Assembly: GCF_023822045.1 (NCBI RefSeq)
Contig: NZ_CP084712.1
Span: forward strand, 2,480,001 to 2,544,000
From: Sphingopyxis sp. USTB-05
GTDB taxonomy: Bacteria; Pseudomonadota; Alphaproteobacteria; Sphingomonadales; Sphingomonadaceae
Direction of reading: 5' to 3'
Length of the DNA stretch: 64,000 nucleotides
Shown: one piece after another, positions 4,865 to 29,455 of the stretch
Position numbering within the stretch: position 1 is the stretch's first letter
How the letters are laid out: every line of letters begins with the position of its first letter
Notes under the pieces: model-generated
Told to the model about the DNA's origin: nothing
The model's input: the letters and a program-made list of their open reading frames with translations, nothing else
Databases searched by the model: none
Made by a program: the position numbers and the translations under genes

Positions 4865-5446
4865 ATGGATTTCGAAGACGACCCCTCAAATCGGCGCGCG
4901 CTGTCGTCGGGCGATCCGCTGCCGCCGGGCGATTGGGAAAGCGCTGGCGCGGCTGGTCGCGCGGAAGCGATCTATGCGGCCGAACGGCCTTATGTGACTG
5001 CGATCTTCCGGCGCAGCGTACCGCCGCACGAGGTGCCCGACCTCGTGCAGGAGACATTCCGCCGCCTCTTCAGCGCAAAGGGAACGGGAACAGGGCTCCT
5101 CCAGGCGTCGCGGGCCTATGTCGCGACTGCCGCACGAGCGATCCTCAAGAACCGGGCTCGTTCCGGGGTTCGCAACCAGACCCACGCCCACCATAGTTTC
5201 GAGGACCATGACGTCGCGGGTCCCGATCCCCATGCCGCGCTCGAACACCGCGACACGCTGCGCCGCGTCGAGGACGCCATCGCAAGGCTGAATCCAACCA
5301 CTCGGGATGTATTCCTGATGCAAACTTTCGACGATCTCAGCTATTCCGAGATCGCACGAATCAAAGGCATAAGCGAAAAAGCCGTGGAAAATCATCTCGT
5401 CAAAGCCCGGATGGCCATTCGCAAGGCGCGAGACACGCAATCGTGA
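4865..5446 (+). CDS. ECF RNA polymerase sigma factor, FecI-like
   Basis: This 193-residue extracytoplasmic-function sigma factor has region 2 near residues 35-70 (YVTAIFRRSV..DLVQETFRRLF). A poorly conserved linker follows, then region 4 near 140-185 (RDVFLMQTFDDLSYSEIARIKGISEKAVENHLVKARM). It is followed immediately by a FecR anti-sigma gene (4-base overlap) and a TonB receptor carrying an STN signalling domain. That is the usual FecI/FecR/FecA cell-surface signalling arrangement. It probably drives the TonB receptor and isopeptidase genes when the ligand, likely a lasso peptide or its chelate, binds outside. Confidence 0.9.
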   Translation: MDFEDDPSNRRALSSGDPLPPGDWESAGAAGRAEAIYAAERPYVTAIFRRSVPPHEVPDLVQETFRRLFSAKGTGTGLLQASRAYVATAARAILKNRARSGVRNQTHAHHSFEDHDVAGPDPHAALEHRDTLRRVEDAIARLNPTTRDVFLMQTFDDLSYSEIARIKGISEKAVENHLVKARMAIRKARDTQS

Positions 5447-6363
5447 GGTCCGTCGAGCGCGAAGCGGCCGAATGGGCCGTGCGGATGCGCGGAACACCGT
5501 CCGAGGCCGACCGCGAGGCCTTCGAGCAATGGTATGCGAAGCCCGGCAATGCCGAGGCCTTTGCTATGTCCGAGGATGATGTCGCGGTGGCTCGTACGGC
5601 ATCGCGCGCCCGTATCGATGCGAAGGCGCGGACCGAACGCAGATCGACCGGCGGTTTCCGCTGGGCCGTCGCGACGATCGCCGCGGTCGGCATCGCCCTC
5701 GGCTTCGCCTGGCACATGGCGCGGCAAAGCGACACGCCCCAGATAGCAGCTGGTCCCATGCTGCCCGGCCAGCTTCGTCTCGCCGATGGCTCCACCGTGA
5801 CCCTGATGGACGGTGCCTGGGCCGAGCCGCAATTCTCCGAGACCGAGCGCCGGATCCGCTTGCACGGCGGCCGCGCACGCTTCGATGTTGCGCACGACAG
5901 CGCCCGCCCTTTCATCGTCGTCGCCGGCATCTCCGAGACGAAAGCCCTCGGCACGGTGTTCGAGGTCGACGCGCGTTCGAACGCCCCCAAGGTCAAACTC
6001 GTGCGCGGCTCGGTGGAGGTTCGCCTCGGCGGAACGGCAAAGACTGTCCGCCTCGTCCCCGGCGAGAGTGCCGAAGTCTCGGAAAGCGGTCCACGCCTCA
6101 TCCCGGCGATGACAAGTCCGCTCCCGACAGCGGAACCGACGACGATGCTGGCGGCCGACGGACTTCCGCTCGGCGCGGTGATCGAAGCGGCGAATAAAGT
6201 GAACTCGAGACCGATCCGCCTCGCCGATCCCGCCCTGACCTCGCTCCCGGTGACAGGCCGTTTTGATGTAACCAACAGCGCAAGCCTTGCCCGCAAGCTC
6301 GCCGCGGCATTGGGACTCCAAGCGACCGACGGATCGGACGCGATCACGCTCAGCAAAAAATAA
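5443..6363 (+). CDS. FecR-family anti-sigma factor / signal transducer
   Basis: This 306-residue inner-membrane protein starts with GTG overlapping the sigma-factor stop codon. The cytoplasmic N-terminus has the DUF4880-type segment AAEWAVRMRG...FEQWYAKPGNAEAF, which holds the sigma factor. One membrane segment lies near residues 70-90 (WAVATIAAVGIALGFAWHM). The periplasmic FecR domain follows (RLADGSTVTLMDGAWAEPQF, GRARFDVAHDSARPFIVVAG), and the C-terminus has an STN-like fold segment. It would pass the signal from the STN domain of the downstream receptor to the sigma factor. Confidence 0.9.
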   Translation: MRSVEREAAEWAVRMRGTPSEADREAFEQWYAKPGNAEAFAMSEDDVAVARTASRARIDAKARTERRSTGGFRWAVATIAAVGIALGFAWHMARQSDTPQIAAGPMLPGQLRLADGSTVTLMDGAWAEPQFSETERRIRLHGGRARFDVAHDSARPFIVVAGISETKALGTVFEVDARSNAPKVKLVRGSVEVRLGGTAKTVRLVPGESAEVSESGPRLIPAMTSPLPTAEPTTMLAADGLPLGAVIEAANKVNSRPIRLADPALTSLPVTGRFDVTNSASLARKLAAALGLQATDGSDAITLSKK

Positions 6364-6380
6364 TTCCCATCGGAGAGGGG

Positions 6381-6410: not shown

Positions 6411-6444
6411 CAGACGGTCATCGGTGGCCGCTTGGGGAGGTAGA

Positions 6445-9390
6445 ATGAAGTACAAGTTTCTGGCGGCGATGCTCTCGGTGAGCACCGCGGCAATCGCGAT
6501 TCAGGTTCCGGCCGCGCACGCGCAGTCAACGTTGACTCAGCAGAGCTACAACATTGCCGCGCAGGATCTCGGCGCGGCACTGCAACGCTACTCGCAGATT
6601 TCGGGCCGCGAAGTGATCGCCTCGACGAGCCTCGTGGAAGGGAAACGGAGTGCCCGTGTTCAGGGTCGCCTGAACCCCGATACCGCCCTCTCGCGTCTAC
6701 TTGCCGGTACCGGCCTCAATGTCGAACTGGTCGAAGGGGCCTGGGTGCTTCGCTCGGGAAACGATTCTGCCGAGGAAACTGGATCGACTGACGGCGGCGG
6801 CGAAGCGATCCTCGTCACGGGCTCGCGCATCCGCGGGGCAGGCCCGACAGGTTCGCCGGTGGTGACGATCGACCGCGAGGCCATCGAGAAGAGCGGTTAC
6901 GGTACCGTCCAGCAAATGCTCCAGTCGCTGCCGCAGGCCTTTGGTGGCGGTTCGAACGAAACCACCACCGGCGCGACGACGCGCAACGGCACCGGCAACG
7001 ACGCAACACTCGGTTCGAGCATCAACCTGCGTGGCCTCGGCACCAACTCTACCCTCGTCCTGATCGACGGCGCGCGCCCGGCGCTCGGCGGCGTCGGCGG
7101 CCTCTTCGCCGACATCTCGCTCATCCCGACGACCGCCGTCGAGAGAATAGAAGTGCTGACAGACGGCGCTTCGGCCATCTACGGCGCCGATGCGGTTGCC
7201 GGCGTCATCAATCTCCGTCTCCGCAACCGCTTCGAGGGGGCCGAGACGATCCTGCGCGCCGGCACGGCGGACGGCGACATGACCGAAGTCCAGTTCAGCC
7301 AGCTTCTCGGAAAGAAGTGGAGCGGCGGACATCTCGTCCTCGCCTATCAATATTCGGATCGCGGCGCACTCGCGGCAGCCGAACGCGATTTCGCGCGCGA
7401 GGATCTCCGCCCCTTCGGCGGCCCCGACTATCGCTCGATCTATGCCAGTCCCGGCACGATCCGCGCCGCGAATGGCCAGCTCTTCGGCATTCCCACCGGA
7501 CAGAATGGCCGCAATCTGACCGCCGCGCAGCTTCTCCCCGGCGTCCAGAACCGCCGCGACAATCGCGCCGAGACGGACCTCCTGCCGCGCCAGCGCGTGC
7601 ATAGCCTTTATGCTGCGGGCGAGTTCGAGATCAACGACGGGCTGACCTTCCGTGCCTCGATCCTCGGGGCGCAGCGCAAATATCGCAAGGAAAGCAATGT
7701 CACCGCGCTGCGCACGGCGCGCGTTCCGGTGACGAACCCCTTCTATGTCGATCCGATCGGCACCCGCCAGCCCGTGCAGGTCACCTATAATTTCGTGAAC
7801 GACGTCGGGCCGCAGATCAACGAAGGCCGCGTGCGGGCACTGTCGACCTCGGCAGGCCTCGAACAGACGATCGGCGAATGGCGGATCCAGCTTGGCGGAG
7901 CCTATGGCGTCCAGAAGGGCAAGGCTCGGACGCGCAACCAGGTCAACAGCGCCCGCCTCGCGGTCGCGCTCGCCGACACCAATCCCGCAACCGCGTTCAA
8001 CGTCTTCGGCGACGGGACTGCGAACAATCCTGCGACAAGCGCCTATATCCGAGGCGGCGTCGAGACGATCGACGACTTCAAGACATGGTCCGCCGCGCTG
8101 CGCGCCGATGGTCCGATCTTCCGCTTACCCGCAGGGGACGTCCGACTCGCGGCAGGCGCCGAGTATCGCCGCGAGGCCTATGACTATTATCGTATCCTCG
8201 ACACGAGCACGCTCACGCCCTCGGCGGGATTCTATCCGGGCTTTCCGGGGCCGCGCCACGTCAAATCGATCTACGCCGAGCTGCTGGTGCCCATCTTCGG
8301 CCGCGACAATGCAATGCCGGGCTTCCACAAGCTCGACCTGACGCTTGCGGGCCGCGTCGAGGACTACAACCAGTTCGGGCGCACCGAGAATCCGAAGGTC
8401 AGCGCACGCTGGGAGCCCGTCGAGGGCATCGCGCTGCGCGGTTCCTACGGTACATCGTTCCGCGCCCCGCAGTTCGACGAGCTGATCGGCCCGGCGCTTT
8501 CGCTCTACACGACGGCGACCGTCCCCGACCCGCGCTCGCCCACCGGCACGTCGAATGTTCTCGCTCTGTTCGGCTATGCGCCGAACATCCAGCCCGAGCA
8601 GGCGACGACATGGACGGCGGGCGTGGACATCGCGCCGCCTTCGATGCCGGGCTTCCGGGCAGCGCTCACCTATTTCGATGTCGATTACCGCGATCGAATC
8701 GGGACGCTCACCGAGGATTATCTTCGCTTCCTCACCAACCGCGACGTGTTCGGCGGGGTGGTGACAGACAATCCGTCCCTCGACCTTGTGCAATTCTACT
8801 ATAATCAGCCGACCTTCACGAACCCGATCAATATCGCGCCGGGACAAGTCGTCGCGATCCTCGACGGGCAGACGCGCAACCTCGCGCGCGAGCATCAGAA
8901 GGGCATCGACTTCGACATCGGCTACGCGCCCGAGTTCGCAGGCGGAACGCTCGACGTCGGGGTCAGCGGCACCCAAATCTTCTCGATCATCAAGCAGCTT
9001 TCACCGGGATCGGCGAGCAGCGACTTCGTCGGCCTCTACGCAAGCCCGGTCAAATGGCGCATGCGCGGACGACTCGGCTGGTCGAGGGATGGCTTCGCGG
9101 TCAGCACGTTCGTCAACTACACCGATGGCTATCGCAACCAGGTCGTCGTTCCAAATGAGCGGGTGTCGTCGTGGACGACCGTCGACCTCACCCTGTCGCA
9201 GCGGATCGGCGGCAATGCCGACGATGCCACTGGGCGCGGCTTGCAGCTCGGCCTCGCGATCCAGAATTTGTTCGATCGCGACCCGCCCTATGTCCACAAC
9301 AAGAGCCAGACCTCGGCGCTCGGCTACGATCCCGAGAAGGCCAGCCCGCTTGGCCGCATGATCTCGGTCCAGGCCGTCATCCGGTGGTAA
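6445..9390 (+). CDS. TonB-dependent outer-membrane receptor with N-terminal STN signalling domain
   Basis: This 981-residue receptor begins at an ATG preceded by GGGGAGG. A signal peptide ends near AAHAQ at residue 27. An STN domain (about 30-105, SYNIAAQDLGAALQRYSQISG) follows, then a TonB-box-like ILVTGSRIRG, a plug domain (VQQMLQSLPQAF, INLRGLG, VERIEVLTDGASAIYGADAVAGVINL) and a long beta-barrel ending in an aromatic residue (VIRW). Placed between FecIR and the lasso isopeptidase, it most likely imports lasso peptides across the outer membrane and signals their presence. Its stop codon overlaps the GTG start of the isopeptidase gene. Confidence 0.92.
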   Translation: MKYKFLAAMLSVSTAAIAIQVPAAHAQSTLTQQSYNIAAQDLGAALQRYSQISGREVIASTSLVEGKRSARVQGRLNPDTALSRLLAGTGLNVELVEGAWVLRSGNDSAEETGSTDGGGEAILVTGSRIRGAGPTGSPVVTIDREAIEKSGYGTVQQMLQSLPQAFGGGSNETTTGATTRNGTGNDATLGSSINLRGLGTNSTLVLIDGARPALGGVGGLFADISLIPTTAVERIEVLTDGASAIYGADAVAGVINLRLRNRFEGAETILRAGTADGDMTEVQFSQLLGKKWSGGHLVLAYQYSDRGALAAAERDFAREDLRPFGGPDYRSIYASPGTIRAANGQLFGIPTGQNGRNLTAAQLLPGVQNRRDNRAETDLLPRQRVHSLYAAGEFEINDGLTFRASILGAQRKYRKESNVTALRTARVPVTNPFYVDPIGTRQPVQVTYNFVNDVGPQINEGRVRALSTSAGLEQTIGEWRIQLGGAYGVQKGKARTRNQVNSARLAVALADTNPATAFNVFGDGTANNPATSAYIRGGVETIDDFKTWSAALRADGPIFRLPAGDVRLAAGAEYRREAYDYYRILDTSTLTPSAGFYPGFPGPRHVKSIYAELLVPIFGRDNAMPGFHKLDLTLAGRVEDYNQFGRTENPKVSARWEPVEGIALRGSYGTSFRAPQFDELIGPALSLYTTATVPDPRSPTGTSNVLALFGYAPNIQPEQATTWTAGVDIAPPSMPGFRAALTYFDVDYRDRIGTLTEDYLRFLTNRDVFGGVVTDNPSLDLVQFYYNQPTFTNPINIAPGQVVAILDGQTRNLAREHQKGIDFDIGYAPEFAGGTLDVGVSGTQIFSIIKQLSPGSASSDFVGLYASPVKWRMRGRLGWSRDGFAVSTFVNYTDGYRNQVVVPNERVSSWTTVDLTLSQRIGGNADDATGRGLQLGLAIQNLFDRDPPYVHNKSQTSALGYDPEKASPLGRMISVQAVIRW

Positions 9391-11369
9391 GCCGAACGGC
9401 TCTGCTGATCACCCTGCTGGCCGCGGCTTCGCCCGCGGCCAGCCAGGTCACCTCGCGCGAGATCGCCGAGACGGCGGATATCTCCGGTCTAAACACTTCA
9501 CCCGACGGAACGTGGGTCGCCTATCGCATCGAACGCCCCTCGACGCTCACCAACCGGATCGACGTCGACTGGTATATCGTCGCCGCCGACGGCAAATCGC
9601 CGCCGCGCGCGCTCGGGCGCACCGGGACCGCACTTTGGAACGATGCCGGCGTCGTCGAACCGGGAGAAGCCAAATGGTCGCCAGATAGCCAGCGGCTTAT
9701 CGTTCGCGCGCTCGTCGATGGCCGGGCCGCGCTCTGGGCCAGTCCGATCGACGGGTCCGGCTTCACGCTAGCGGCGGGCGGCGATGGCGACATCGAGGCC
9801 TTCGCGCTCACCCGGGACGGCGCAATAGTCACGCGCGAAGGGCCATCACGCGACCTGATCGCACGCACCGAAGAGGCCGAGCGCGAGACCGGCATCCTGG
9901 TCGACGGCCAGACCGATCTTGCCCAGCCACTCTTCCGCGGCGCGCTGATCAACGGCCGCGTGGCGAGCCAGCGCTTTTCCAATGACTGGTTCGACCGTGC
10001 CCCGCTCCTCGCCTCGGCTCCGCGAACTCTTACTACGACCACGCCCGGCGGCAGCTCTCGCCGCGCCAGCGAGACCGAAGCCCTGTTGCTCGCCCCGCAG
10101 CCCGATCCGGTCGCGCTCCTGACGAGCGACTTGCCACCCACTCTACAGAAGGCGCTCGAGGACAGGGGCGTCTGCAAGACCAAGATTGGCTGCGCCGCCG
10201 ACCTTCCCCGCCTCTCATGGGTGCTCCCGATGAATGGCGACACGGTCGTGGCGCTGCACGACGCCGATTACCGCCAGACGCTCCTGCGCTGGTCACCAAG
10301 GACGAAGCGCCTCGAGAAGCTGGCCGCGAGCGAAGGACAGCTCGCTGGCGGACAGAAATATTATCTCCCCTGCGCCGCCGCCGGGAGCGCGATCTTCTGC
10401 GTCGAAGCTGCCGCGGCGCTTCCGCCGCGCCTCGTCCGCATCGATCGCGGCGGCGCGAAGCGCATAATCGATTCCCCCAATTTCTATCCTGACCGCGACG
10501 GGCTCATTGCCGAAACGATCGTGTGGCAGGTGAGCGGCAGCCGTGCGTCGGGCGTATTGATCCGCCCGAAGATCCCCGGGCGGCTGCCGCTCTTCGTCAC
10601 CTATTATACATGCGCAGGATATCTTCGCGGGGGCGTCGGCAATGAATGGCCGCTGCGGGCACTTGCCGCGCACGGCATCGCGGCGCTCTGCATCAATGCG
10701 GTGCCCGGCGATACCGACAAGGATGCCCGCTATAAACGCGGACTCGCCGCGATCGAGGCCGTCACGACGTTGCTCGCTGAGCGCGGCATCGTCGACCGAG
10801 CCCGTGTCGGCATGGGCGGGCTCAGCTTCGGCAGCGAGGTCACGATGTGGGCCGCGACGCACAGCGACCTGTTGAAGGCCGTCTCGATCGCCTCGGTCCA
10901 GATGGAGCCTGCCTATTACTGGTTCAATGCCCGTCCGGGCCGCGAGACCTTCGCCGACAATGTCCGGAAAGTGTGGGGCGCCGGGTCGCCCGACGAGACG
11001 CCAGAGGCGTGGAAGGAGCTCTCCCCCGCGCTCAATACCGATCGCATCACCGCGCCGATCCTGATGCAGTTTCCTGAACAGGAAGCACGTCTGTCGATCG
11101 AGTTGATTAGCAGGCTCGCCACGGCGCGAATGGGCGAGGCGCATATCTTTCCATACGCGCCGCACAACAAGGTCGAGCCCCGGCAAAAGCTTGCCGCCTA
11201 TGAGCGCAACCTCGACTGGTTTCGCTTCTGGCTGAAGGACGAGATCGATCCCGACCCCGCCAAGGCCTTCCAATATCAGCGCTGGTCCAAATTCGCGCCG
11301 GCGGAAGCGCGCGCTTCAACCGAGCGCACCCAGCGTTCGACGTCGCCGATCTCGATCAACCGGAAATAA
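9384..11369 (+). CDS. Lasso peptide isopeptidase, S9 prolyl-oligopeptidase type (AtxE2-like)
   Basis: The family linearises threaded lasso peptides by hydrolysing the ring isopeptide bond. The 661-residue protein starts at GTG 9384, overlapping the receptor stop. That gives a signal peptide (VVSRTALLITLLAAASPAASQ), which fits a periplasmic site. The typical N-terminus (SREIAETADISGLNTSPDGTWVAYR) is followed by a beta-propeller region and an alpha/beta-hydrolase domain. The nucleophile motif is GLSFG with Ser481, and His594 lies in APHNK. The acidic member of the triad is less clear, since the expected region reads FPEQEARLS. The last 94 bp overlap the 3' end of the convergent cyclase gene. 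Context with the lasso genes makes this role much more likely than general peptide hydrolysis. Confidence 0.88.
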   Translation: MVSRTALLITLLAAASPAASQVTSREIAETADISGLNTSPDGTWVAYRIERPSTLTNRIDVDWYIVAADGKSPPRALGRTGTALWNDAGVVEPGEAKWSPDSQRLIVRALVDGRAALWASPIDGSGFTLAAGGDGDIEAFALTRDGAIVTREGPSRDLIARTEEAERETGILVDGQTDLAQPLFRGALINGRVASQRFSNDWFDRAPLLASAPRTLTTTTPGGSSRRASETEALLLAPQPDPVALLTSDLPPTLQKALEDRGVCKTKIGCAADLPRLSWVLPMNGDTVVALHDADYRQTLLRWSPRTKRLEKLAASEGQLAGGQKYYLPCAAAGSAIFCVEAAAALPPRLVRIDRGGAKRIIDSPNFYPDRDGLIAETIVWQVSGSRASGVLIRPKIPGRLPLFVTYYTCAGYLRGGVGNEWPLRALAAHGIAALCINAVPGDTDKDARYKRGLAAIEAVTTLLAERGIVDRARVGMGGLSFGSEVTMWAATHSDLLKAVSIASVQMEPAYYWFNARPGRETFADNVRKVWGAGSPDETPEAWKELSPALNTDRITAPILMQFPEQEARLSIELISRLATARMGEAHIFPYAPHNKVEPRQKLAAYERNLDWFRFWLKDEIDPDPAKAFQYQRWSKFAPAEARASTERTQRSTSPISINRK

Positions 11370-12973
11370 TCGAAGTCGCCCTCGGCAAGATCGAGGGTGA
11401 GATAGGTCTCGATCCTGTCGACATCGAGCAGGCCGCGCTCGGCCAGTCTGCCGCCGAGCAGCAGGTCGCGGAGCTGCGCCCGCTGCCTGAGATAGGCGGC
11501 GGCGCAGAGCGCTTCCATCCGGCCCTTGCCTTTGCGCCACACGACCTCGGCCGGAAGCCGATCGGCGAAAGCTGCGCGCGCCACGGCGCGGTTACGCCCG
11601 CCGACAAACCAGCTCCCGCTCGGGATCGAGAGGCAAAGTTCAACCACGGGCTGCGAGAGCAATGGCGAGACGACGTCGCGGCCCTCCCAGCGCAACGGTC
11701 GGTCGAGGAAGTCGATTATGCGCCGGATGGATTCCGCATGGTTCCGCTTGGCCTGCGACACCGCGCCAGCGCCGTCATCCCAAGGATGCGGAAATGGTTT
11801 GTCCGGAAGGGCCTTGGCATCGAGGTAATCGACGTCGCGGCGCCAGCCGCGACGCGGACCCGCGCGATGCGCTCGCCAGCTGAGGCGCAACGCCTCCCAG
11901 ATCGTCGCGTCACTCGCACGCGCGACGTCGCGCAAGGTCGCAAGGGTCCGGCGCGACAAGCCCCAGCGCGCCCAACTATCGAGGACCGGCGCGACCGTGC
12001 TGTCGAAATGAAAGACGCTATCGCCGCCTATTCCGCCGAAGATCGGACGCTCGTGGTCTGGCACTGCCTCGGCGAACGCACGATCGAGACCGCCGAGGAC
12101 GCTGTAGGCGCCCGGCCTTGCCGTGAAGAGGGTCGGCAGCGAGACGAGATCGATGCCGACATCGTTATGCTCGATCTCCACAAGATCGATCGCGCATCGG
12201 TCTGCGACAGCCCGTGCGAAATAACGCTCATCGCCCTCCGCGTCGGGCGTGGCAAAGGTGATCGCCGAGACGTCGGCGCCGGCCGCTGCGAGCGCTGCGG
12301 TCACGATCGAGGAATCAAGGCCGCCCGACAGCTCGACGATGATGCCCTTCCGGGATCCGCTCCAGGCGGCCGTACAGTCGTTGATCCGCTTCTCGAGCTC
12401 TAACGGAAGTTCCTCCGGCCTAGTCGAGCGCGGCGGCGGGACATGGTCCCAAGGCGACCAGCTCGCCTCGACCGCAATCTTGAGACCATCGAACAGGATG
12501 CGTGTGCCGGCGAGGAGCTCATGCACGCCCGACAGCCCCGTCCGCTCGGTGCGAAGGTTGATATAGGCGAGCGCCCCGGCGACATAGTCCCAGTCGATGG
12601 CGATATCCTGTGGCCGGGCCCGGAGCATGGCCGGGTCGGACGCGCAGATGAGACCCGCGGGATGGCGGCTCCAGTATAGGGGCATGCCGGTGAGCGCCGC
12701 CCGCTCGATCCCAAGCGCGCCGCCATCGGCGGTGAAGGCGATGAAGTTCCCCCAGCAGAAGCGGGGTGGCCGCCCCGAGGCGGGGTAGCGCGTGAAGCAA
12801 TCACCGATGATGACGGTGCCGCCGGGCGCGCGCTGGACCGGCAGCGAACTGTTCGCAAAAATCACCCTGCCGGGCTGGATGTCCACCGCGACAAGACCGG
12901 TCCGTTCCGCCGCGGCCACGACGTCAGCGGCTCGCTCGGCATCGCCCACGAAGGCGAGGATCGCCCCTCTCAC
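11276..12973 (-). CDS. Lasso peptide macrolactam synthetase, asparagine-synthase-like (C protein)
   Basis: The family adenylates the Asp/Glu side chain of the cleaved precursor with ATP and closes it onto Gly1, forming the lasso ring. The 565-residue protein starts at GTG 12973, overlapping the B-gene stop by 4 bases; a longer upstream frame exists but runs through the B gene. The N-terminal half is glutaminase-like without a catalytic Cys at the start. The synthetase domain begins near residue 200 with the PP-loop ELSGGLDSS. Further on are FGGIGGDSVF and SPLLSQPVVE...RKGKGRME, as in asparagine synthase-like cyclases. It is co-transcribed with the B protein, and its 3' end runs 94 bp into the isopeptidase gene on the other strand. 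Confidence 0.9.
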   Translation of the reverse strand: MRGAILAFVGDAERAADVVAAAERTGLVAVDIQPGRVIFANSSLPVQRAPGGTVIIGDCFTRYPASGRPPRFCWGNFIAFTADGGALGIERAALTGMPLYWSRHPAGLICASDPAMLRARPQDIAIDWDYVAGALAYINLRTERTGLSGVHELLAGTRILFDGLKIAVEASWSPWDHVPPPRSTRPEELPLELEKRINDCTAAWSGSRKGIIVELSGGLDSSIVTAALAAAGADVSAITFATPDAEGDERYFARAVADRCAIDLVEIEHNDVGIDLVSLPTLFTARPGAYSVLGGLDRAFAEAVPDHERPIFGGIGGDSVFHFDSTVAPVLDSWARWGLSRRTLATLRDVARASDATIWEALRLSWRAHRAGPRRGWRRDVDYLDAKALPDKPFPHPWDDGAGAVSQAKRNHAESIRRIIDFLDRPLRWEGRDVVSPLLSQPVVELCLSIPSGSWFVGGRNRAVARAAFADRLPAEVVWRKGKGRMEALCAAAYLRQRAQLRDLLLGGRLAERGLLDVDRIETYLTLDLAEGDFDYFRLIEIGDVERWVRSVEARASAGANLDQR

Positions 12974-13623
12974 CGGATCACCAGGATCGGCACGAAGTTG
13001 CGGGCTTCGGCAGCCGTCCCGGTCAGTATCGCCGACGGGGACTGCAGCCAGCAATGCGCCTTGAAGGGTGACATCCGAATGCCGAACACCATCGTCGAGG
13101 CAAGCCCGCGCGCTAGTAGTATGTGGTCGAGCGCAAGCGCGTCGATCAGACAGCGCTGCGGAACGGGATTGAGCCATCGAGCGGCAGCATATCGGGCGGA
13201 AACAATCTCAATCTCGCCATCGGCAGCAGAGGGGCCCACTCCCGCCTTCCGCGCGCGGACGGCCTCGATCGTGAACCCAATCTGCTCGGGCCGCATGGCG
13301 CGACGTGCCCATCGGAGTGCAAACGCGGTCGACAAGGCCATGCGCGGGCTGAAGCTCTCGTGACTTACCGCCGCGAGGTCTCGCGTGGGCACATCGATCG
13401 CCGCGGGTTCGACCGATCCCGGGCCATTGGTCGAGACAAAGAGGCCAGTCGCAACAAGCCTCGCGATTGCGCCGCCGTCATTGGGTTCGCCACGGCGCAG
13501 GCGGTCGAACGCGGCACGGTCCTGGCCGCGGAGCGATAGATATTTGTCGCGAGCGAGATCGAGGAAGACGAGTTCCTCCGCTGTCTCGCAGAAGCCCGTT
13601 CCGGGCGCGAGCGTCAATCCCAT
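12970..13623 (-). CDS. Lasso peptide B protein: RRE plus transglutaminase-like leader peptidase
   Basis: This protein binds the precursor leader and removes it. The 217 residues begin at ATG 13623; an open frame further upstream runs through precursor A2 and is rejected. Residues 1-65 resemble the PqqD-like recognition element (TAEELVFLDLARDKYLSLRG). The C-terminal half is the transglutaminase-like peptidase, with the Cys in PQRCLIDALAL and the His in FKAHCWLQ. The usual third residue, an Asp 12 positions after the His in McjB, is Gly here (AILTGT where ILND would be expected), and no other Asp follows. The fused two-domain form is typical of proteobacterial lasso clusters. Confidence 0.88.
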   Translation of the reverse strand: MGLTLAPGTGFCETAEELVFLDLARDKYLSLRGQDRAAFDRLRRGEPNDGGAIARLVATGLFVSTNGPGSVEPAAIDVPTRDLAAVSHESFSPRMALSTAFALRWARRAMRPEQIGFTIEAVRARKAGVGPSAADGEIEIVSARYAAARWLNPVPQRCLIDALALDHILLARGLASTMVFGIRMSPFKAHCWLQSPSAILTGTAAEARNFVPILVIR

Positions 13624-13643
13624 GGCATTTTTATCCGGCAGAT

Positions 13644-13673
13644 CGGGAGACCGACCGCGAGGGCCGGCTCCCG
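13644..13673 (-). promoter_or_regulatory. RNA hairpin between precursor A2 and the B gene
   Basis: The transcript between A2 and B can fold as CGGGAG pairing with CTCCCG around a second stem CGGCC/GGTCG with a 5-base loop. It has no following U-run. It could partly stop transcription or protect the 3' end of the precursor message, giving more precursor than enzyme. This is seen from the sequence; the function is inferred. Confidence 0.5.
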
Positions 13674-13682
13674 AAGTGGCGA

Positions 13683-13805
13683 TCAGTCCTGGGTCAGTCC
13701 GGCCCAGTCTTCGCGGCCGCCCATTTCGAGGGGCAGACCATGCTCGCCGGCAGTGTCGGCGCACACGGTGCCGAGTTCGACGAGCGTGTCGGTGTCGATA
13801 TCCAT
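13683..13805 (-). CDS. Lasso peptide precursor A2
   Basis: This is a 40-residue precursor. The leader is MDIDTDTLVELGTVCADTA, with the conserved Thr at position -2. The core starts with Gly and is 21 residues long. The ring segment is GEHGLPLE, so Glu8 would close an 8-membered ring on Gly1; the loop and tail are MGGREDWAGLTQD. The start ATG has AAAGG 8 bases upstream. The leader matches A1 in VELGTVxADTA, and the core shares GG in the loop and the ending GLxQD. The gene sits directly before the B and C genes. The only other acidic ring candidates (Glu2) are too close to Gly1. Confidence 0.85.
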   Translation of the reverse strand: MDIDTDTLVELGTVCADTAGEHGLPLEMGGREDWAGLTQD

Positions 13806-13844
13806 CGTTTTGACCTTTCGACGGAGGTTGAAGTGGAAGCCGGA

Positions 13845-13860
13845 GGCCGGGAAGCCGGCC
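13845..13860 (-). promoter_or_regulatory. Short RNA hairpin between precursors A1 and A2
   Basis: The transcript reads GGCCGG CTTC CCGGCC, a perfect 6 bp stem with a 4-base loop, in the 69 bp gap between the two precursor genes. It may stabilise the upstream message. No U-run follows, so it is not a simple terminator. Confidence 0.5.
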
Positions 13861-13874
13861 CCCGACCGACCGGC

Positions 13875-13997
13875 TCAGTCCTGGCTCAGACCCTGAACCA
13901 GTTCCTTGCCGCCCGCTTCGATGCCGAAGCGTTCTTCGCCGGCGGTATCGGCGCTGACGGTGCCGAGCTCGACGATGTCGTTGGTTTCGCGATCCAT
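13875..13997 (-). CDS. Lasso peptide precursor A1
   Basis: This is a 40-residue precursor. The leader is MDRETNDIVELGTVSADTA, with Thr at -2. The predicted core is 21 residues: ring GEERFGIE (Gly1 to Glu8), then AGGKELVQGLSQD. The ATG at 13997 has GGAGG 8 bases upstream (GGAGGAAACGATCATG). The longer frame reaching 14081 is rejected because its nearer ATG lies inside this ribosome site. The ending GLSQD resembles sphingopyxin-type lasso peptides, from memory. A1 is the first gene after the GntR regulator and is followed by A2, B and C. Confidence 0.87.
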   Translation of the reverse strand: MDRETNDIVELGTVSADTAGEERFGIEAGGKELVQGLSQD

Positions 13998-14056
13998 GAT
14001 CGTTTCCTCCATGATGCCGCGGAATTGCGGCTCGATCGAAGCTAGGGCGGCGGCGC

Positions 14057-14075
14057 CGTATAGGAATTTTATACG
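14057..14075 (-). promoter_or_regulatory. Candidate GntR operator before precursor A1
   Basis: A 19 bp inverted repeat, CGTATA-N7-TATACG, lies in the AT-rich stretch between the GntR gene and precursor A1, 59 bp before the A1 start codon. FadR-subfamily GntR regulators commonly bind GTATAC-containing palindromes. The adjacent gene encodes such a regulator, so this is the best candidate operator for the precursor promoter. Confidence 0.5.
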
Positions 14076-14093
14076 ACTCATATCGTCCGAATA

Positions 14094-14717
14094 TTATCGG
14101 AGCGGCTCCGAGCGTTTGCGGATCTCGGCAGCAACGCGCCCCGCGAACCCTGCCCGGCGGCGATGGAAGCGCGTGATTTTGCTGCGCAAAGCGCTCCAGC
14201 GCCCGAAGCGGTAGTCCTCCGCCATCGCCTTGAGCGCTTCGCCAGCGTCGGCATCAACGCGGACCTCCAGCGAGCGAATTGTCATGCTGCGCTCGACAAT
14301 ATTGACGATCGCCGCGCGAAGTTCGCCGTTGGAGCTTCCGATCGCGATGGTCCTGAAGAGACTTTCGATCGCCTCGGGATATGAGTCGTGCGTCGCGAGA
14401 TCGATGAGGCCGCCGGGCAAGTCAGGCCGCGGGGACCGCCCCTTGAGCGCCATCGACAGGAGCGCGCCAGCCCAGCCGTATAGGTCAACTAGGTCGGCCT
14501 CACTCAGGAGGGGCTGCCGAAACCCCTCCTGATGCCAGCTCTCGATGATCCGCTCGCCCGAGAGACGATAGAGCGCATCGCGGACCGGAGTGGCGCTCGA
14601 GGCGAGCGATTTCGAGAGATGCGCGGCCTCGAGCCGGGTGCCCGGCGGATAGGCGCCCGACAGGATGCGCGCCTTCAGGTCCAGATAGACCCGCTCCATC
14701 GTGGCGCCCGGGCTCAT
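14094..14717 (-). CDS. GntR-family transcriptional regulator
   Basis: This 207-residue regulator has an N-terminal winged helix (YLDLKARILSGAYPPGTRLEAAHLSKSLASSATPVRDALYRLSGERII, about residues 10-58). A helical C-terminal domain of FadR/FCD type follows. The ATG overlaps the stop of the upstream dioxygenase gene (ATGA), so the two are translationally coupled. It lies directly before the lasso precursors, where a GTATA palindrome is found. It probably controls the precursor operon in response to a small acid or a peptide fragment; the ligand cannot be told from sequence. Confidence 0.85.
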   Translation of the reverse strand: MSPGATMERVYLDLKARILSGAYPPGTRLEAAHLSKSLASSATPVRDALYRLSGERIIESWHQEGFRQPLLSEADLVDLYGWAGALLSMALKGRSPRPDLPGGLIDLATHDSYPEAIESLFRTIAIGSSNGELRAAIVNIVERSMTIRSLEVRVDADAGEALKAMAEDYRFGRWSALRSKITRFHRRRAGFAGRVAAEIRKRSEPLR

Positions 14718-15631
14718 GCCGCCAACGCCCCGCGCTCGCCTTCTCCTTCCGGCCGCTGCGCGGCGACATAGTCGGCGAGGAGTGCCTGTTGATCAGGCCG
14801 CAGCGCATCGATCGCGGCTATCGGGTCCTCGGGATAGCCGCCGAACAGCACCGACGGGCATTGTCCCTCGAAGTTCCCGAGATTGGGGCGATGTTGCGCG
14901 TAACCCGCAAGCGCCGCAAGCTCGGGCGAGAATGTCCGCGCAATTTCGGGCGGATAGGCCAGCCACTGATTTTCATAGGGTTTCAGCCAGCCGAGACAGT
15001 AGCTGACGATTATCCCGCGGCGAACGTCCCCGCTCCGATTTGCGCCGGCACCGTGCAGCGTCGAGCCGAGGAAGACGATGGCGTCGCCGGGCTGCGCCTC
15101 GGCAACGATCGGGGCTTCTTTGGGCTCCTCGACCAAGGCCTCGACACCGTGGCTGCCCGGCCAGATGATCGTCGCGCCATTAGCCTCGGTAAATGGCGTG
15201 AGCGGCCACATGACATTGACGAGATATTCGACCTCGCCCAGCGCGCCTTGCCACATGTCCTGGTCGCGGTGCGGGAATTGCGCGAGCGCGCCCGGATGCA
15301 GCTCGATTGCTTGGGAAAGGTTGAGTTGGATCCGCTCGCACCAGTTGCCGAGCGCAGTCTCAGCCATTTCGAGGATCGCCGGGTTCATCACGAGATCGGC
15401 CATATGCGGCGAGCGGATCAGGAGGCGGCCGAACCGCTTGGTCCGCTCGCCATAGAAACCGCCCTCGCAGAAGGGCGTCGCCTCGTAGCGTGGTTCGAGA
15501 TCCGCAGCGATCGCTTCGATGAGCGATTCTGGGGCGGCGCCTCGCAGGATAGAATAGCCATTTTCCATCAGCGCCTGAGCGGCAGAGGATTGATGGGATC
15601 GCGCGTCGAGCGCGGCGTGGTTGATCAGCAT
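14714..15631 (-). CDS. Fe(II)/2-oxoglutarate dioxygenase, PhyH family
   Basis: This 305-residue phytanoyl-CoA-dioxygenase-like protein has the iron-binding facial triad visible as HRD in FPHRDQDMW and a distal His in GSTLHGAGANRSGD. The following Arg in GDVRRGIIVSYCLGW would bind 2-oxoglutarate. The start ATG at 15631 has GAGGAGAGG upstream; the longer frame runs into luxI and is rejected. It starts 10 bp after luxI and overlaps the GntR gene, so it sits within the quorum-sensing/lasso run. It could hydroxylate the lasso peptide or act on the homoserine-lactone signal. Both are inferences. Confidence 0.85.
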   Translation of the reverse strand: MLINHAALDARSHQSSAAQALMENGYSILRGAAPESLIEAIAADLEPRYEATPFCEGGFYGERTKRFGRLLIRSPHMADLVMNPAILEMAETALGNWCERIQLNLSQAIELHPGALAQFPHRDQDMWQGALGEVEYLVNVMWPLTPFTEANGATIIWPGSHGVEALVEEPKEAPIVAEAQPGDAIVFLGSTLHGAGANRSGDVRRGIIVSYCLGWLKPYENQWLAYPPEIARTFSPELAALAGYAQHRPNLGNFEGQCPSVLFGGYPEDPIAAIDALRPDQQALLADYVAAQRPEGEGERGALAA

Positions 15632-15641
15632 CGTCCTCTCC

Positions 15642-16256
15642 TCACGCTGCACAGGCGGCCGACGCCGCAACTGCATGGCTGACAATCCCCGCGCCAGCGA
15701 GTTTTGCGACGGTCGAGGCATCGATATCGATGCGAAGCCCAACGAGCGCTTGCCCGCGGTGGAGGACGGGCTCGCCGAGCGAGCAGCAATCCCAGCCGAA
15801 GGTCTGGATCTGGCGGAACCAGGGCAGCTCGGCGACGCCGGTATAGGTGCGGATCTCGTTGGCGAGCGCGAACTCGGCAAGCCCGACAAGCAGCGAGTCG
15901 CGGGCGATCCGCCGCTGCCGCGCGCCAATTCCGGGCGACAGACAGAAGCGGGTGATTTCGAGGACGTTGGGGCCCTGCGGCACGTCCCCTGCGACCAGCC
16001 CCGAGAAGAGGCTGTCGAGGAGCGCAGGCTGGGTGGTGAGCAGCAGGCGCGCCGAGGCGAGATGCTCGCCGTCCGGATCGGTCACGATCAGATAGGTGGC
16101 ATCGACGTCGTCGAACTGGTCCAGCTCGAAGCGATCGGCCAGCGCAGGAATATCCCATTTCAGAAGATCGATGAAGACGCGCTTGCGCGCCTCGAACATC
16201 GCGCGCATCGCCTTATGCTCGAGAGCCCGGTTGGTGGAATCGACAATAAGCAGCAT
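15642..16256 (-). CDS. Acyl-homoserine-lactone synthase, LuxI family
   Basis: This 204-residue autoinducer synthase makes acyl-homoserine lactones from S-adenosylmethionine and an acyl carrier. The invariant family residues are present: Arg and Phe in ARKRVFIDLL, Trp in KWDIP, the acidic ELDQFDD, Arg in SARLLL, and the Glu/Arg pair in LEITRFCLSP. The ATG at 16256 has GGAGG at a good distance. It lies 90 bp downstream of its luxR partner and 10 bp upstream of the dioxygenase gene. Confidence 0.9.
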   Translation of the reverse strand: MLLIVDSTNRALEHKAMRAMFEARKRVFIDLLKWDIPALADRFELDQFDDVDATYLIVTDPDGEHLASARLLLTTQPALLDSLFSGLVAGDVPQGPNVLEITRFCLSPGIGARQRRIARDSLLVGLAEFALANEIRTYTGVAELPWFRQIQTFGWDCCSLGEPVLHRGQALVGLRIDIDASTVAKLAGAGIVSHAVAASAACAA

Positions 16257-16322
16257 GGATTTGCCTCCGTTTGAAAAGAGGCGTTCCAATTGAAGGGCTT
16301 TTCGCCGCTGCACCATAGCATG

Positions 16323-16341
16323 ATCGGGGGGTGTCCCCGAT
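16323..16341 (-). promoter_or_regulatory. Candidate lux box upstream of the AHL synthase gene
   Basis: A 19 bp palindrome, ATCGGGG-N5-CCCCGAT, sits in the 90 bp luxR-luxI gap, ending 67 bp before the luxI start. On the minus strand it is not followed by a U-run, so it does not look like a terminator for luxR. Its length and place fit a LuxR-type binding site giving positive feedback on luxI and the downstream genes. Confidence 0.5.
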
Positions 16342-16346
16342 TTTTC

Positions 16347-17081
16347 TCAGCGTTTGGCGATGTCCTCGAAACTTATGTCGCCATCGTACAGCGCGCGCAC
16401 GGTGAGCGTGATACCGCCATTCGCCTCGTAGCGCTGGCGGGCATTGCGCAGATGTTCGCGCACCGTGTCCGGACTGAGACCAAGTCTTAGCCCTATTCTG
16501 GGGACGGACTCGCCCTTGGCCGCCCAGACCAGCACCTCGCGCTGCCGACGGGTCAGGCGTGGCCCGATGTGCGCGAGATCCGGATAGGCGATAAGGCGCG
16601 CCGCATCGAAAGCGGGACCGCCAATCATCCGCGCAAATTGCAGCGCGTCGGCACTCGCAGAGCTACCCGGCTTCCACGCAAACGAAACCGAGCCATGCGC
16701 ATGGCCGGGAAGATGCGCCGGCACGGTGAGACCATCACCGATGCCGTGCCGCCGCGCCTCGGCAAGAATGACTTCGTCTTCAGGCCGCTCGGTCCTCATA
16801 TCGTGCCAGAGGAAACCCGACATGTTGCGCTGGCTCTCGCGGTGGACGGGATCGGTGACCCCGAGCCGCCGCTCGTCGAACCACAGTGCCCACTCTTCCG
16901 GGTAATTGTGGACGCGAACGCCTCGGTCCGGATCGGCCATGAAGTCGATGTGGTGACTGAGCGCGAACCAGGAGCACCCCATTCGCGAGCAGGCTTCCTG
17001 CAGCAGGTCGGCAAGACCTGCCTTGTCCTTCACATGACTGACGTCGAGCGCAAATGCATGCGCGGCGTCCATCGTCGGCAT
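16347..17081 (-). CDS. LuxR-family autoinducer-binding regulator
   Basis: This 244-residue regulator has an N-terminal autoinducer-binding domain (about 15-165), which includes the family pattern of aromatic/acidic residues W..WFDERRLGVTDPVHRESQRNMSGFLWHD. The C-terminal LuxR helix-turn-helix is near 175-235 (LTRRQREVLVWAAKGESVPRIGLRLGLSPDTVREHLRNARQRYEA). It is the partner of the adjacent luxI and reads in the same direction. It would switch on luxI, the dioxygenase and possibly the lasso genes at high cell density. Confidence 0.9.
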   Translation of the reverse strand: MPTMDAAHAFALDVSHVKDKAGLADLLQEACSRMGCSWFALSHHIDFMADPDRGVRVHNYPEEWALWFDERRLGVTDPVHRESQRNMSGFLWHDMRTERPEDEVILAEARRHGIGDGLTVPAHLPGHAHGSVSFAWKPGSSASADALQFARMIGGPAFDAARLIAYPDLAHIGPRLTRRQREVLVWAAKGESVPRIGLRLGLSPDTVREHLRNARQRYEANGGITLTVRALYDGDISFEDIAKR

Positions 17082-17315
17082 TATGACCCTTGGCGCGCCG
17101 ACCGGCGTTTCCGACCTGCCGGGTCCGCGAGCCCCTCGTCAGTGCGAGCGGCCTTGCCCTCTTACAAGGCTGGCCGGCTCGCGACGGCCGATCACCGCTG
17201 GTCCAGGCGATCTTCGGAGAATCTGAAAGTGCGGGCTAAGCCCATATTATTCAAATATATTCCAGAGATAGAACCAGATTGAGGCAATTTCCGCAAAGCC
17301 GCGGAATTCCGCGGC
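17082..17315. other. Boundary gap between the quorum-sensing/lasso block and the element backbone
   Basis: I see no gene here. The first part must hold the luxR promoter, with an AT-rich patch at about 17246-17280. The last part ends in a perfect 20 bp palindrome against the stop codon of the DUF2493 gene. Confidence 0.4.
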
Positions 17316-17316
17316 T
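17297..17316. repeat. Perfect 20 bp palindrome at the end of the DUF2493 gene
   Basis: AGCCGCGGAATTCCGCGGCT is fully self-complementary. Its last base is the first base of the minus-strand stop codon of the DUF2493 gene. It may act as a weak terminator or protein-binding site; no U-run follows on the minus strand. Confidence 0.55.
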
Positions 17317-18248
17317 CAGCCGGAACCCTTGCGGAAGTCCCAGAGCGGGATGCCCATTTTTGAAGCCTTGTCGGCGAGATTGTCCTGAATTCCAGTTCCC
17401 GGAAAGACGATGAGACCAACGGGAAGTGCCTCGAGCATCCGGTCGTTGCGCTTGAACGGTGCCGCCTTCCCATGCCGGTTCCAGTCGGGCCGGAAGGCGA
17501 CCTGTGCCACGCCGCGGCTGTCGGCCCAGCAGGCGGCGGCGCGTTCGGCGCCGGTGGGCGTCGCTCCATGGAGAAGGATCATGTCGGTATGCCGGGCCCG
17601 GACCTTGTCGAGTGCGCTCCAGATGGCGTTGTGATCATCGCAGTCGCTCCCGCCGGTAAAGGCGATGCGGGTTCCTTCGGGCAGCAAGGCCGCAGCCTTC
17701 TCGCGAAGCCGCGCGTCGAGAAAGTCGCGGCTGTCGATCATCGATGCCGTCAGGTTGCGATGGTGCGCTCGCGATCCGGTACGAGGCGCCCAAGCCTTGC
17801 GGAGCAGAAGCCGGAATTGGTCGGCGGCGGCCTCGCGGAAAAATTCCATCGCGTCGCGCCGCTCGATCAGGGAGATGCCCTCGCGCGTTGCCCGCTCGAG
17901 TTCGACCGAGCGGATCTCGCTGCCATCCTGCTCGCGTTGGAGCCGTCGCTGGGTCTGCTCATTGTCGTCGAGCTGCCGCTCGACCCGCTCGCCGGCACGG
18001 TGGAAGATGTTGACGAGATTCCAGAGAAGGTCGTCGAGATCGGGCTCGATCCGGGTCTCCACGAGACACCCCGCTAGCGCATCGAACATGTCGGCGATGG
18101 CACCACCGGCAAGATGCGCATCGGGGAGCGGTCTCGGGTCGGGTTCACCCTCGAAGGGCCGATGACCGAAGAGCTGCATTTCCTGAAGCAGATAGGCCGT
18201 CGTTCCGGGTTCGGCTGGATGGTCGTGAGGGGTGGCGTCGCCGTGCAT
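17316..18248 (-). CDS. DUF2493 / YspA cpYpsA-related SLOG family protein
   Basis: This 310-residue protein has an N-terminal half rich in charged residues, likely helical. The C-terminal SLOG domain (about 180-305) has IAFTGGSDCDDHNAIWSALDKV, LLHGATPTGAERAAACWAD and VGLIVFPGTGIQDNLADKA. SLOG domains bind nucleotide-like ligands. This exact protein type is common on plasmids and integrative elements of sphingomonads, which fits the following toprim, strawberry-notch and ParB genes. Its function is not known. Confidence 0.8.
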   Translation of the reverse strand: MHGDATPHDHPAEPGTTAYLLQEMQLFGHRPFEGEPDPRPLPDAHLAGGAIADMFDALAGCLVETRIEPDLDDLLWNLVNIFHRAGERVERQLDDNEQTQRRLQREQDGSEIRSVELERATREGISLIERRDAMEFFREAAADQFRLLLRKAWAPRTGSRAHHRNLTASMIDSRDFLDARLREKAAALLPEGTRIAFTGGSDCDDHNAIWSALDKVRARHTDMILLHGATPTGAERAAACWADSRGVAQVAFRPDWNRHGKAAPFKRNDRMLEALPVGLIVFPGTGIQDNLADKASKMGIPLWDFRKGSG

Positions 18249-18556
18249 GATGGATCTCCGTCTGATTGTGCCGCGCCTCGCGCGGCCTTCGTGGCGACGG
18301 CCCGCGGCATGCGGGGTGGGTCCGCATCGCGGCGCGCCGCGACCGGAGCGCAGCGGAGGATGGGGGACGCGCGGCTATTTTGTTTCGCGATGCAAAGGGG
18401 CCGCGAGGCCCCGGCGGAAAATAGCCGCGCGTCCCCCATTGCGGCCCCCGCCCCGTCTGCCGCAGTCGCCCTCTCGCGAAGGCCGGGCGCGCACGTCGCA
18501 GCGGAAAGCCTACGCGCCCATCCGCTGCCCTGCCCCTTCCGGCGAACCCGATGCGT
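18249..18556. other. 308 bp intergenic region with a large dyad
   Basis: The gap lies between the toprim gene (ending at 18557) and the DUF2493 gene (starting at 18248), both on the minus strand. It has no credible gene. Its main content is the 80 bp inverted repeat described separately, plus presumably the DUF2493 promoter. Confidence 0.6.
18360..18439. repeat. 80 bp dyad: perfect 22 bp inverted repeat with an inner hairpin
   Basis: The arms at 18360-18381 and 18418-18439 are perfect reverse complements of 22 bp; the left arm begins ATGGGGGACGCGCGG and ends CTATTTT. The 36-base centre holds its own stem, GGGGCC-GCGA-GGCCCC (18397-18412). The arms end in A/T runs facing the loop, the reverse of a normal terminator. 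Such structures occur at transfer or replication origins, at strong RNA processing sites, or as mobile mini-elements; the sequence alone does not decide. Confidence 0.75.
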
Positions 18557-19591
18557 TCAAAGAAACTTCAAGCGATCGGCAGGCAAGAGCTGGCTGCGAA
18601 GCGAGGCCGCCATCGCAGCGCGGCCGACCGCCCTGAGGTCGCCGTTGAAATCGCCATGCCGGGGTTCGAGCGGGAGGACGTCGATGCCACATTGTGACGC
18701 GCGCTCGCTGAGCGTCGCCAGCGCAGCGTCCCCGGCGGGATCATCGTCGCGCGCGACGTAGAGCCTCTTCAACATGTCGGGAAACGCGATTGCGGCAAGA
18801 TGTGCGCCCGAGAGCCCGGAGATCATCGGCAGGGTTGGCATGACCTGCCGCAAGGACAGGATGGTCTCGATCCCTTCGCCCGCCGCCATGACCCTTCCCG
18901 ATGCTCCGAACCGCACGCCATTACCGAGCAGATGCCCCATGGCGCGGCGCGGATAGGCGATCGGCGCCTTGTCGTTCGTTTCGGGATCGAGCCAGGTCCG
19001 ATGCACACCCGTGACGGTCCCGGCGAGGTCGGTCACCACCGCGATCATCGCCGGCCACGCCGGTCGACCTCCGCGCGCATCGTCGCTGGATGCCCTGTAG
19101 TAGCAGTGCGGATGAAAGCGTAGCGGGTAGTCCGGAAGAATGTCGGTGATCGATCGGCCAACCAGATAGGCCTCACCGAGACTCGCCTTCAAGGGCTTGG
19201 TCGCAGCCAGCAGCCGACGCGCCGACTCCGGGGACCCGGTGGGAGCCTTTGCGGGTGCAGGATTTCGCGGTGCCTCGGGCGGCGGCGGCATGCTTAGAAA
19301 CCGCCGTGCTTCCTCGAGGGTTTCACGAAATGCCGTATGGCCGCAGCTCGCGGCGATGACGTCGAGGAGATCGCCATGATCGCCGCTCGCAGCGTCGGTC
19401 CATTTCCCGGGGGCGCCGCCGCCATTGGCACTGGAAGCAAGCCGCACATAGAGGCTTCGCCCCGGAGAATTGCTGATGTCGCCGACCATCCAGTAATGGC
19501 CTTCGCGGCGCCCGTTGGAGAGATAACGACGGCACACCGCCTCGGCATTCTCCCCGAGACGGCGCGCAACTTCGGATGCTGGACTGGACAT
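18557..19591 (-). CDS. Toprim domain-containing protein, mobile-element primase-like
   Basis: This 344-residue protein starts at ATG 19591 with GGAG upstream; the longer frame runs into the next gene. The N-terminal region is DUF7146-like (ARRLGENAEAVCRRYLSNGRREGHYWMVGD). The toprim domain lies near 200-310, with the acidic Glu in AAGEGIETILSLRQ and the Asp cluster in LYVARDDDPAGDAAL. No zinc-finger primase domain is visible. It is separated from the helicase/methyltransferase gene by only 11 bp. It probably acts on element DNA during replication or transfer. Confidence 0.82.
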   Translation of the reverse strand: MSSPASEVARRLGENAEAVCRRYLSNGRREGHYWMVGDISNSPGRSLYVRLASSANGGGAPGKWTDAASGDHGDLLDVIAASCGHTAFRETLEEARRFLSMPPPPEAPRNPAPAKAPTGSPESARRLLAATKPLKASLGEAYLVGRSITDILPDYPLRFHPHCYYRASSDDARGGRPAWPAMIAVVTDLAGTVTGVHRTWLDPETNDKAPIAYPRRAMGHLLGNGVRFGASGRVMAAGEGIETILSLRQVMPTLPMISGLSGAHLAAIAFPDMLKRLYVARDDDPAGDAALATLSERASQCGIDVLPLEPRHGDFNGDLRAVGRAAMAASLRSQLLPADRLKFL

Positions 19592-19602
19592 GCGGGGCTC
19601 CT

Positions 19603-29452: not shown

Positions 29453-29455
29453 GGG

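Follow-up and report, generated by a model that had tools for sequence, protein, structure and literature searches.

A quorum-sensing luxR-luxI-phyH module at the head of an isopeptidase-type lasso peptide cluster in Sphingopyxis sp. USTB-05, and its recurrence in the family

We analysed a 64,000-nt stretch of the Sphingopyxis sp. USTB-05 genome (RefSeq assembly GCF_023822045.1, contig NZ_CP084712.1, positions 2,480,001 to 2,544,000; hereafter the window), in which a lasso peptide gene cluster is preceded by a complete acyl-homoserine-lactone (AHL) quorum-sensing (QS) pair. Eight genes lie in the order luxR-luxI-phyH-gntR-A1-A2-B-C, all on the minus strand between 11276 and 17081 (Table 1), as described in an earlier reading made from the DNA letters alone (the sequence-only reading). 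The intergenic gaps measure 90 bp (luxR-luxI), 10 bp (luxI-phyH), 96 bp (gntR-A1), 69 bp (A1-A2) and 59 bp (A2-B), the largest matching the upper limit of 96 bp given in that reading. The 4-base overlaps that it had called several do exist; read from the bases, they number two inside the predicted operon, at phyH-gntR (ATGA) and at B-C (GTGA). Not mentioned there was a second arm on the plus strand that faces the first, FecI-FecR-TonB receptor-isopeptidase, at 4865-11369.

The features of isopeptidase-type lasso clusters are present, namely a precursor, a B protein and cyclase, an AtxE2-type isopeptidase, a TonB receptor, a sigma/anti-sigma pair and a GntR gene before the precursor. Given the facing arm, and by the family assignments of its genes, the locus is an isopeptidase-type lasso cluster; what sets it apart from the usual form is the luxR-luxI-phyH set preceding gntR. 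In each precursor, T stands at position -2, and the core has G at its first and E at its eighth position. In unmodified, cyclised form, the two peptides are expected at [M+H]+ 2201.083 and 2250.024. Precursor homologues occupy the same place in relatives, where the core peptides vary widely and the gene order is constant. The cyclase and isopeptidase genes are convergent, and the 3' ends of their frames share 94 bp (11276-11369); in Sphingomonas paeninsulae this overlap is annotated as 27 bp. The gap between A1 and A2 (13806-13874) holds a very stable, GC-rich hairpin (z -3.12, 0 of 200 shuffles), which possibly limits transcription or protects the A1 message. A search of 4000-24000 against Rfam gave no match.

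Table 1 Genes and sequence elements of the lasso locus in the window (aa, amino acids)
Feature	Position	Strand	Basis
luxR, autoinducer-binding transcriptional regulator, 244 aa	16347..17081	-	Pfam Autoind_bind 5.1e-25 and GerE 6.7e-10; RhlR the nearest solved structure, 1.3e-12
luxI, acyl-homoserine-lactone synthase, 204 aa	15642..16256	-	Pfam Autoind_synth 8.3e-21; match to a solved AHL synthase 2.1e-22
phyH, Fe(II)/2-oxoglutarate dioxygenase, 305 aa	14714..15631	-	Pfam PhyH 3.7e-23
gntR, GntR-type regulator, 207 aa	14094..14717	-	Pfam GntR 9e-14, N-terminal domain only
Lasso precursor A1, core GEERFGIEAGGKELVQGLSQD, predicted ring G1-E8	13875..13997	-	NCBIfam benenodin NF033522, 28.2 bits (cut-off 33)
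Lasso precursor A2, core GEHGLPLEMGGREDWAGLTQD, predicted ring G1-E8	13683..13805	-	NCBIfam benenodin NF033522, 21.8 bits (cut-off 33)
Lasso B protein, 217 aa	12970..13623	-	NF033537 lasso_biosyn_B2, 63.7 bits (cut-off 33)
Lasso cyclase C, asparagine-synthetase-like, ~565 aa	11276..12973	-	Pfam Asn_synthase 6.6e-26, 92.2 bits; start codon read from bases
Lasso isopeptidase E	9384..11369	+	NF033523 Atxe2 family, 493.5 bits (cut-off 400); AtxE2 structure match 1.8e-30; start codon read from bases
TonB-dependent receptor	6436..9390	+	Pfam TonB barrel 7.4e-30 and Plug 7.3e-17
FecR-type anti-sigma factor	5443..6363	+	Pfam FecR 1.7e-14
FecI-type extracytoplasmic-function (ECF) sigma factor	4865..5446	+	Pfam Sigma70_r4_2 1.9e-15
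Conserved block in the luxR-luxI gap, CACCCCCC-GATCA-TGCTATGG	16313..16333	-	Putative LuxR site and extended -10
Box GTATAAAATTCCTATA, ~76 nt before the A1 ATG	14059..14074	-	Putative GntR operator/promoter element
Inverted repeat GCCGC-AATTCC-GCGGC, directly before the A1 ribosome-binding site	14016..14031	-	Stem columns covary

The QS pair keeps its key residues, in agreement with the sequence-only reading. Alignment with RhlR places W64, D77, P78, W92 and G117, which we take to be the key residues of the ligand domain, in the window LuxR, and F68 at the site of the RhlR tyrosine, four residues past the conserved tryptophan W64. The window luxI is the sole luxI match in the host genome, a single contig of 4.68 Mb. 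Its product carries D46, D49, R70, E100 and R103, each conserved in at least 98% of the aligned LuxI rows, together with R24, F28 and W34, which are named as conserved in LuxI (PMC3704786). The luxR-luxI gaps of relatives carry a related block before luxI, which in most Sphingopyxis loci reads roughly CACCCCCC-N-ATC-R-TGCTATGG, and the block of the window occurs only once in the 4.68-Mb genome with up to three mismatches allowed. Palindrome tests of the gap on single sequences were mostly non-significant.

The QS-headed arrangement was then sought in an even sample of 249 genomes from the family, with luxI recognised by PF00765 and the lasso B gene by NF033537 (B2). This gave 104 luxI matches in 78 genomes and 140 B2 matches in 107. 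For 19 of the 104 luxI matches, a B2 match is no more than 6 kb away, in every case downstream of luxI and on its strand. These 19 are in 18 genomes of 12 genera, the genome of the window included; about 0.34 such pairs would be expected by chance at an assumed 3.4 Mb per genome. The QS-headed lasso cluster is a recurrent cluster type, beyond chance. The statement in the sequence-only reading that an AHL system does not usually lead lasso clusters goes too far for this family.

Stretches extending up to 14 kb downstream, some of them shortened by contig ends, were fetched around 100 of the 104 luxI matches and searched by tblastn with the window proteins. Lasso B or C was found in 26 of the 100, all 26 with phyH. 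The order luxR-luxI-phyH-(gntR)-B-C is kept in 19 of the 26 (L062-L080), with gntR in 18 of these, a facing isopeptidase in 18 and a TonB receptor in 17. Four more luxI matches, outside the 26 stretches, have B2 at a distance of 16-21 kb. The gene table of the Sphingomonas paeninsulae plasmid NZ_CP032828.1, the contig of L071, shows the same layout.

In a second survey, one genome per species was scanned with the window PhyH, and the best 80 of 238 loci were kept, which biases the set towards close relatives, near-copies included. The two surveys overlap; L251 and L271, for example, are on the same contigs as L066 and L063. Full clusters make up 51 of the 80 loci, all 51 with luxR and gntR and 50 with a facing isopeptidase. 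Three loci are partial, two being cut by contig ends (L211, L216) and one having A and B with no C within 9 kb (L208), and the other 26 are without lasso genes.

Two variant layouts were also seen. Five loci (L117, L121, L122, L148 and L285) have luxR-luxI-phyH, followed by gntR except in L121, and then receptor-arm genes and the isopeptidase in place of A-B-C. Five others (L239, L245, L246, L259 and L275) have luxR-luxI-phyH-gntR without lasso matches, followed by unrelated genes; remnants left after loss of the lasso genes are a possible explanation.

For comparison, 40 B2 matches without luxI within 30 kb were hand-chosen from 110, so that the absence of luxI was a criterion of selection and the absence of luxR and phyH was not. 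By tblastn, 30 of these lux-free controls have B and/or C, 27 have B and 18 have gntR; neither luxR nor phyH was found in any of the 40. We therefore assign gntR to the lasso cluster and phyH to the QS module. The locus joins two modules, luxR-luxI-phyH, which also occurs with no lasso genes nearby, and gntR-A-B-C/isopeptidase-TonB-FecR-FecI, which also occurs without lux.

The dioxygenase follows luxI in 75 of the 100 luxI loci, 49 of which are without lasso B or C in the fetched stretch (9 of the 49 stretches are shorter than 15 kb through contig ends). Because phyH accompanies luxI where lasso genes are lacking and is absent from lux-free lasso loci, PhyH is probably a component of the signal module and not a lasso maturation enzyme. 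We also considered that PhyH might be a tailoring enzyme that hydroxylates the lasso precursor, the operon being one biosynthetic unit, as CanE, an iron/2-oxoglutarate enzyme, is reported to do in canucin (PMC9266682). The HxD...H...R pattern, kept in 69 of 69 full-length relatives, would suit such a role. This was rejected as the principal interpretation because phyH travels with luxI and not with the lasso genes, and we consider it very unlikely. The closest named relatives of the window PhyH are mostly from Sphingopyxis. At E up to 1e-40, relatives were also found on plasmids, in 40 records of which 33 are typed as conjugative; on a Methylocystis plasmid with such a relative, no luxI is listed within 9 kb, the plasmid gene tables being incomplete.

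The region between gntR and A1 carries two conserved elements of its own. With up to two mismatches allowed, the box occurs once in the host genome; of 59 distinct sequences upstream of A, 42 carry a related box 69-80 nt before the gene. The strict form of the pattern was found upstream of B in 11 of the 26 lux-lasso loci; among the controls, the 27 with a B match had no such occurrence, and four, two of them without a B match, had one match elsewhere. The inverted repeat was examined in an alignment of 58 sequences, namely the 59 upstream sequences without L267 and with the window in place of L080, its own copy. Across the six pairs of the repeat, 87.3% of cells hold a standard pair, and five of the six vary on both sides. 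The covariation score was 0.273, compared with 0.168 +/- 0.014 for shuffles, none of 500 of which reached it, and slid versions scored at most 0.123; the count of further pair types was unremarkable (344 of 500 shuffles). Such shuffles can be beaten by related sequences without any structure, and a DNA operator covaries likewise, so the covariation would fit either an RNA hairpin or a DNA palindrome. Perfect inverted repeats of at least 5 bp also precede A in 7 of the 12 lux-free controls in which a precursor was found.

Taking these observations together, we lean modestly towards reading the locus as an isopeptidase-type lasso cluster whose biosynthetic arm is joined to a complete QS module and which works in the following steps. 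LuxI would produce an AHL, and PhyH may assist in its oxidation. Signal-bound LuxR would act at the block in the luxR-luxI gap and drive luxI-phyH-gntR, with some read-through into A-B-C, and GntR, made mainly from the QS transcript, would govern the precursor promoter by way of the box before A1. The two peptides, matured by B and C, would return through the TonB receptor. FecR/FecI would sense the loaded receptor and raise the amounts of receptor and isopeptidase, and the isopeptidase would open the peptide inside the cell. The sequence-only reading had predicted control of lasso production by cell density; this is partly supported, in that a QS pair heads the lasso genes in a layout kept in relatives. 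An increase of precursor expression with density is one possibility, A having its own box and repeat. Density control, with either sign, is the best-supported prediction, and it rests on the layout and the conserved sites. A promoter/terminator scan of 11000-17400, a weak method, gave 9 terminator-like sites versus 3.8 +/- 1.5 expected; from luxI to A1 the only two on the minus strand overlap each other within phyH (15460-15477).

Several observations weigh against this interpretation. Stable hairpins occupy both the A1-A2 and the A2-B gap. The inverted repeat ATCGGGG-ACACC-CCCCGAT, which overlaps the block before luxI, is by itself not beyond chance (P = 0.235), and the A1 leader of the window does not stand out from shuffles in its fold (z -0.87). 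In the other seven of the 26 stretches with lasso B or C (L115, L117, L121, L122, L126, L129 and L148), the QS module lies next to the receptor arm, not A-B-C, as it does on plasmid pMC4 of Sphingopyxis indica. Lux-linked cyclases do not form one clade. A cyclase tree with 19 canonical rows shows strong clustering, with six changes and none of 500 shuffles that low, and at least three of the changes are forced by well supported branches; a single origin of the join was rejected on this ground. The changes imply several joins or losses, the long branches leaving the details unsure. A LuxI tree made by a quick method is likewise clustered and likewise not one clade. Finally, degenerate A boxes are present in 3-4 of the 12 lux-free controls with a precursor found (L164, L165, L179 and perhaps L200).

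The last point bears on how quorum control could reach the precursor. Given these degenerate boxes upstream of control precursors (a precursor being found in 12 of the 27 controls with B), the A box was rejected as a lux-specific element, and the region upstream of the precursor seems to belong to the lasso cluster itself. A may therefore be transcribed without read-through from luxI. Since A has its own upstream box and repeat, with degenerate forms in lux-free clusters, GntR is the likelier link between QS and the precursor, as a putative activator or repressor, and quorum control probably reaches the precursor through GntR together with read-through, with either sign.

GntR proteins are often repressors. 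If GntR represses A and accumulates with the QS transcript, high density would shut lasso production off. The coupling of gntR to the QS genes is compatible with this, and in the window the A box forms a palindrome, GTATA-N7-TATAC, which may serve as an operator; in many relatives the second arm is different. The opposite effect would be expected of read-through from luxI into A, the sequence being compatible with either sign. We regard density-repressed production as unlikely. The window GntR is 91% identical to a Sphingopyxis granuli protein.

Returning to the joined, density-responsive cluster that we favour, its surroundings raise a further alternative. Beyond luxR, within 17316-29736, lie ParB, Strawberry-notch helicase, Toprim/DUF7146 and YspA-like genes, and a phage-type integrase (28226-29635) adjoins a tRNA-Tyr gene (29651-29736); we infer the backbone of a plasmid-like or integrative element beside the lasso cluster. 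Relatives of the YspA-like gene, which is next to luxR, occur in 19 of the 80 loci of the second survey, mostly in Sphingopyxis and often with a Toprim gene. The QS module and the lasso cluster could simply share this integrative element, with A depending solely on its own GntR-dependent promoter and QS serving the element, for example in its transfer. The adjoining element genes would fit such co-residence, as would the similar A upstream region in a few lux-free clusters. So would plasmid pSLPG of strain SYK-6 (L287, typed conjugative), on which luxR-luxR-luxI-phyH lies shortly upstream of type IV secretion genes, a layout that suggests QS control of transfer. However, a search for the repeat of the tRNA end that would mark the second end of the element did not find it, and the nearest VirB4-/VirD4-type genes are about 150 kb or more from the cluster. 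Moreover, 27 of 31 loci, a set with some near-identical members and with start codons assigned by rule, share the 4-base phyH-gntR overlap. This overlap couples a gene of the lasso cluster, gntR, to the QS genes, and the order and orientation are constant across 12 genera. Co-residence without control appears improbable to us.

Combined with the density-responsive cluster, the element context allows a more speculative proposal, which we consider less likely than not, of a two-signal circuit on a mobile element. The lasso peptide would be a public, receptor-sensed signal or carrier, gated by a private AHL system with a single genomic target site, and PhyH would oxidise the acyl chain to give a distinct signal. 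The QS-PhyH module would then be a portable density switch placed on varied cargo, such as plasmid conjugation genes and lasso clusters. This would propose a role for phyH, noted beside sphingomonad luxI since at least 2013. At the practical level, the QS-headed class predicts when lasso peptides are made, with AHL addition or luxI deletion as a simple switch, and the arrangement offers a route to when and why these puzzling peptides are produced.

At the other side of the locus, cyanophycin-type genes occupy 86-3786 of the window, among them one for a Mur-ligase/ATP-grasp protein that resembles cyanophycin synthetase and one for a cyanophycinase-like peptidase S51. The third frame there is presumably isoaspartyl-peptidase-like.

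Among known systems, the window shares with astexin-, benenodin- and sphingopyxin-type isopeptidase clusters the GntR gene before A, the isopeptidase, the TonB receptor and the sigma/anti-sigma pair, and differs in that luxR-luxI-phyH precedes gntR. The architecture of isopeptidase clusters has been called almost constant, and GntR before A described as usual (PMC9266682 section 12); in the accessible text, that section names no QS genes and the word 'quorum' is absent from the paper. The sphingocin cluster of Sphingomonas BPH is similar in that an isopeptidase and a TonB receptor set lie next to its A-B-C genes; the accessible account names no lux genes, and a transposon mutant ties the cluster to phenanthrene use (PMC11006600). 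Capistruin of Burkholderia thailandensis is comparable in that an indirect connection with AHL levels, by way of ScmR, has been suggested for it, but its cluster is capABCD with an ABC transporter, and no luxI is named in it in the text available (PMC6963729).

The QS half also has precedents. In the novR-novI-phyH loci of Novosphingobium, luxR is upstream of luxI and phyH comes next, as in the window; phyH was reported in 2013 beside luxI in 4 of 5 pairs, and novR-novI-phyH was suggested to be a QS-regulated operon (PMC3704786). That description, as far as it is accessible, names no lasso or gntR genes, whereas the module in the window continues into both. The closest parallel comes from Antarctica, where Sphingomonas sp. 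So64.6b has a 'lassopeptide-homoserine lactone' hybrid antiSMASH region with 50% similarity to one of Sphingomonas koreensis (PMC9716278, 2022); like the window, this region combines a lasso cluster and an AHL synthase. It is a table entry, the accessible description gives no gene order or control, and the word 'quorum' is absent from the accessible text; through this listing, lasso/AHL co-location is already on record. For one Erythrobacter strain, the accessible text lists lasso and homoserine-lactone regions, not as one region (PMC9723273), and no link between the two is made in the accessible parts of PMC8776678 and PMC10915500. In the accessible open-licence literature we found no description of the conserved gene order, recurrence or control of the QS-lasso arrangement. 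The co-location listing and the position of phyH beside luxI were thus already known, and what appears to be new here is the recurrent, conserved QS-headed lasso layout.

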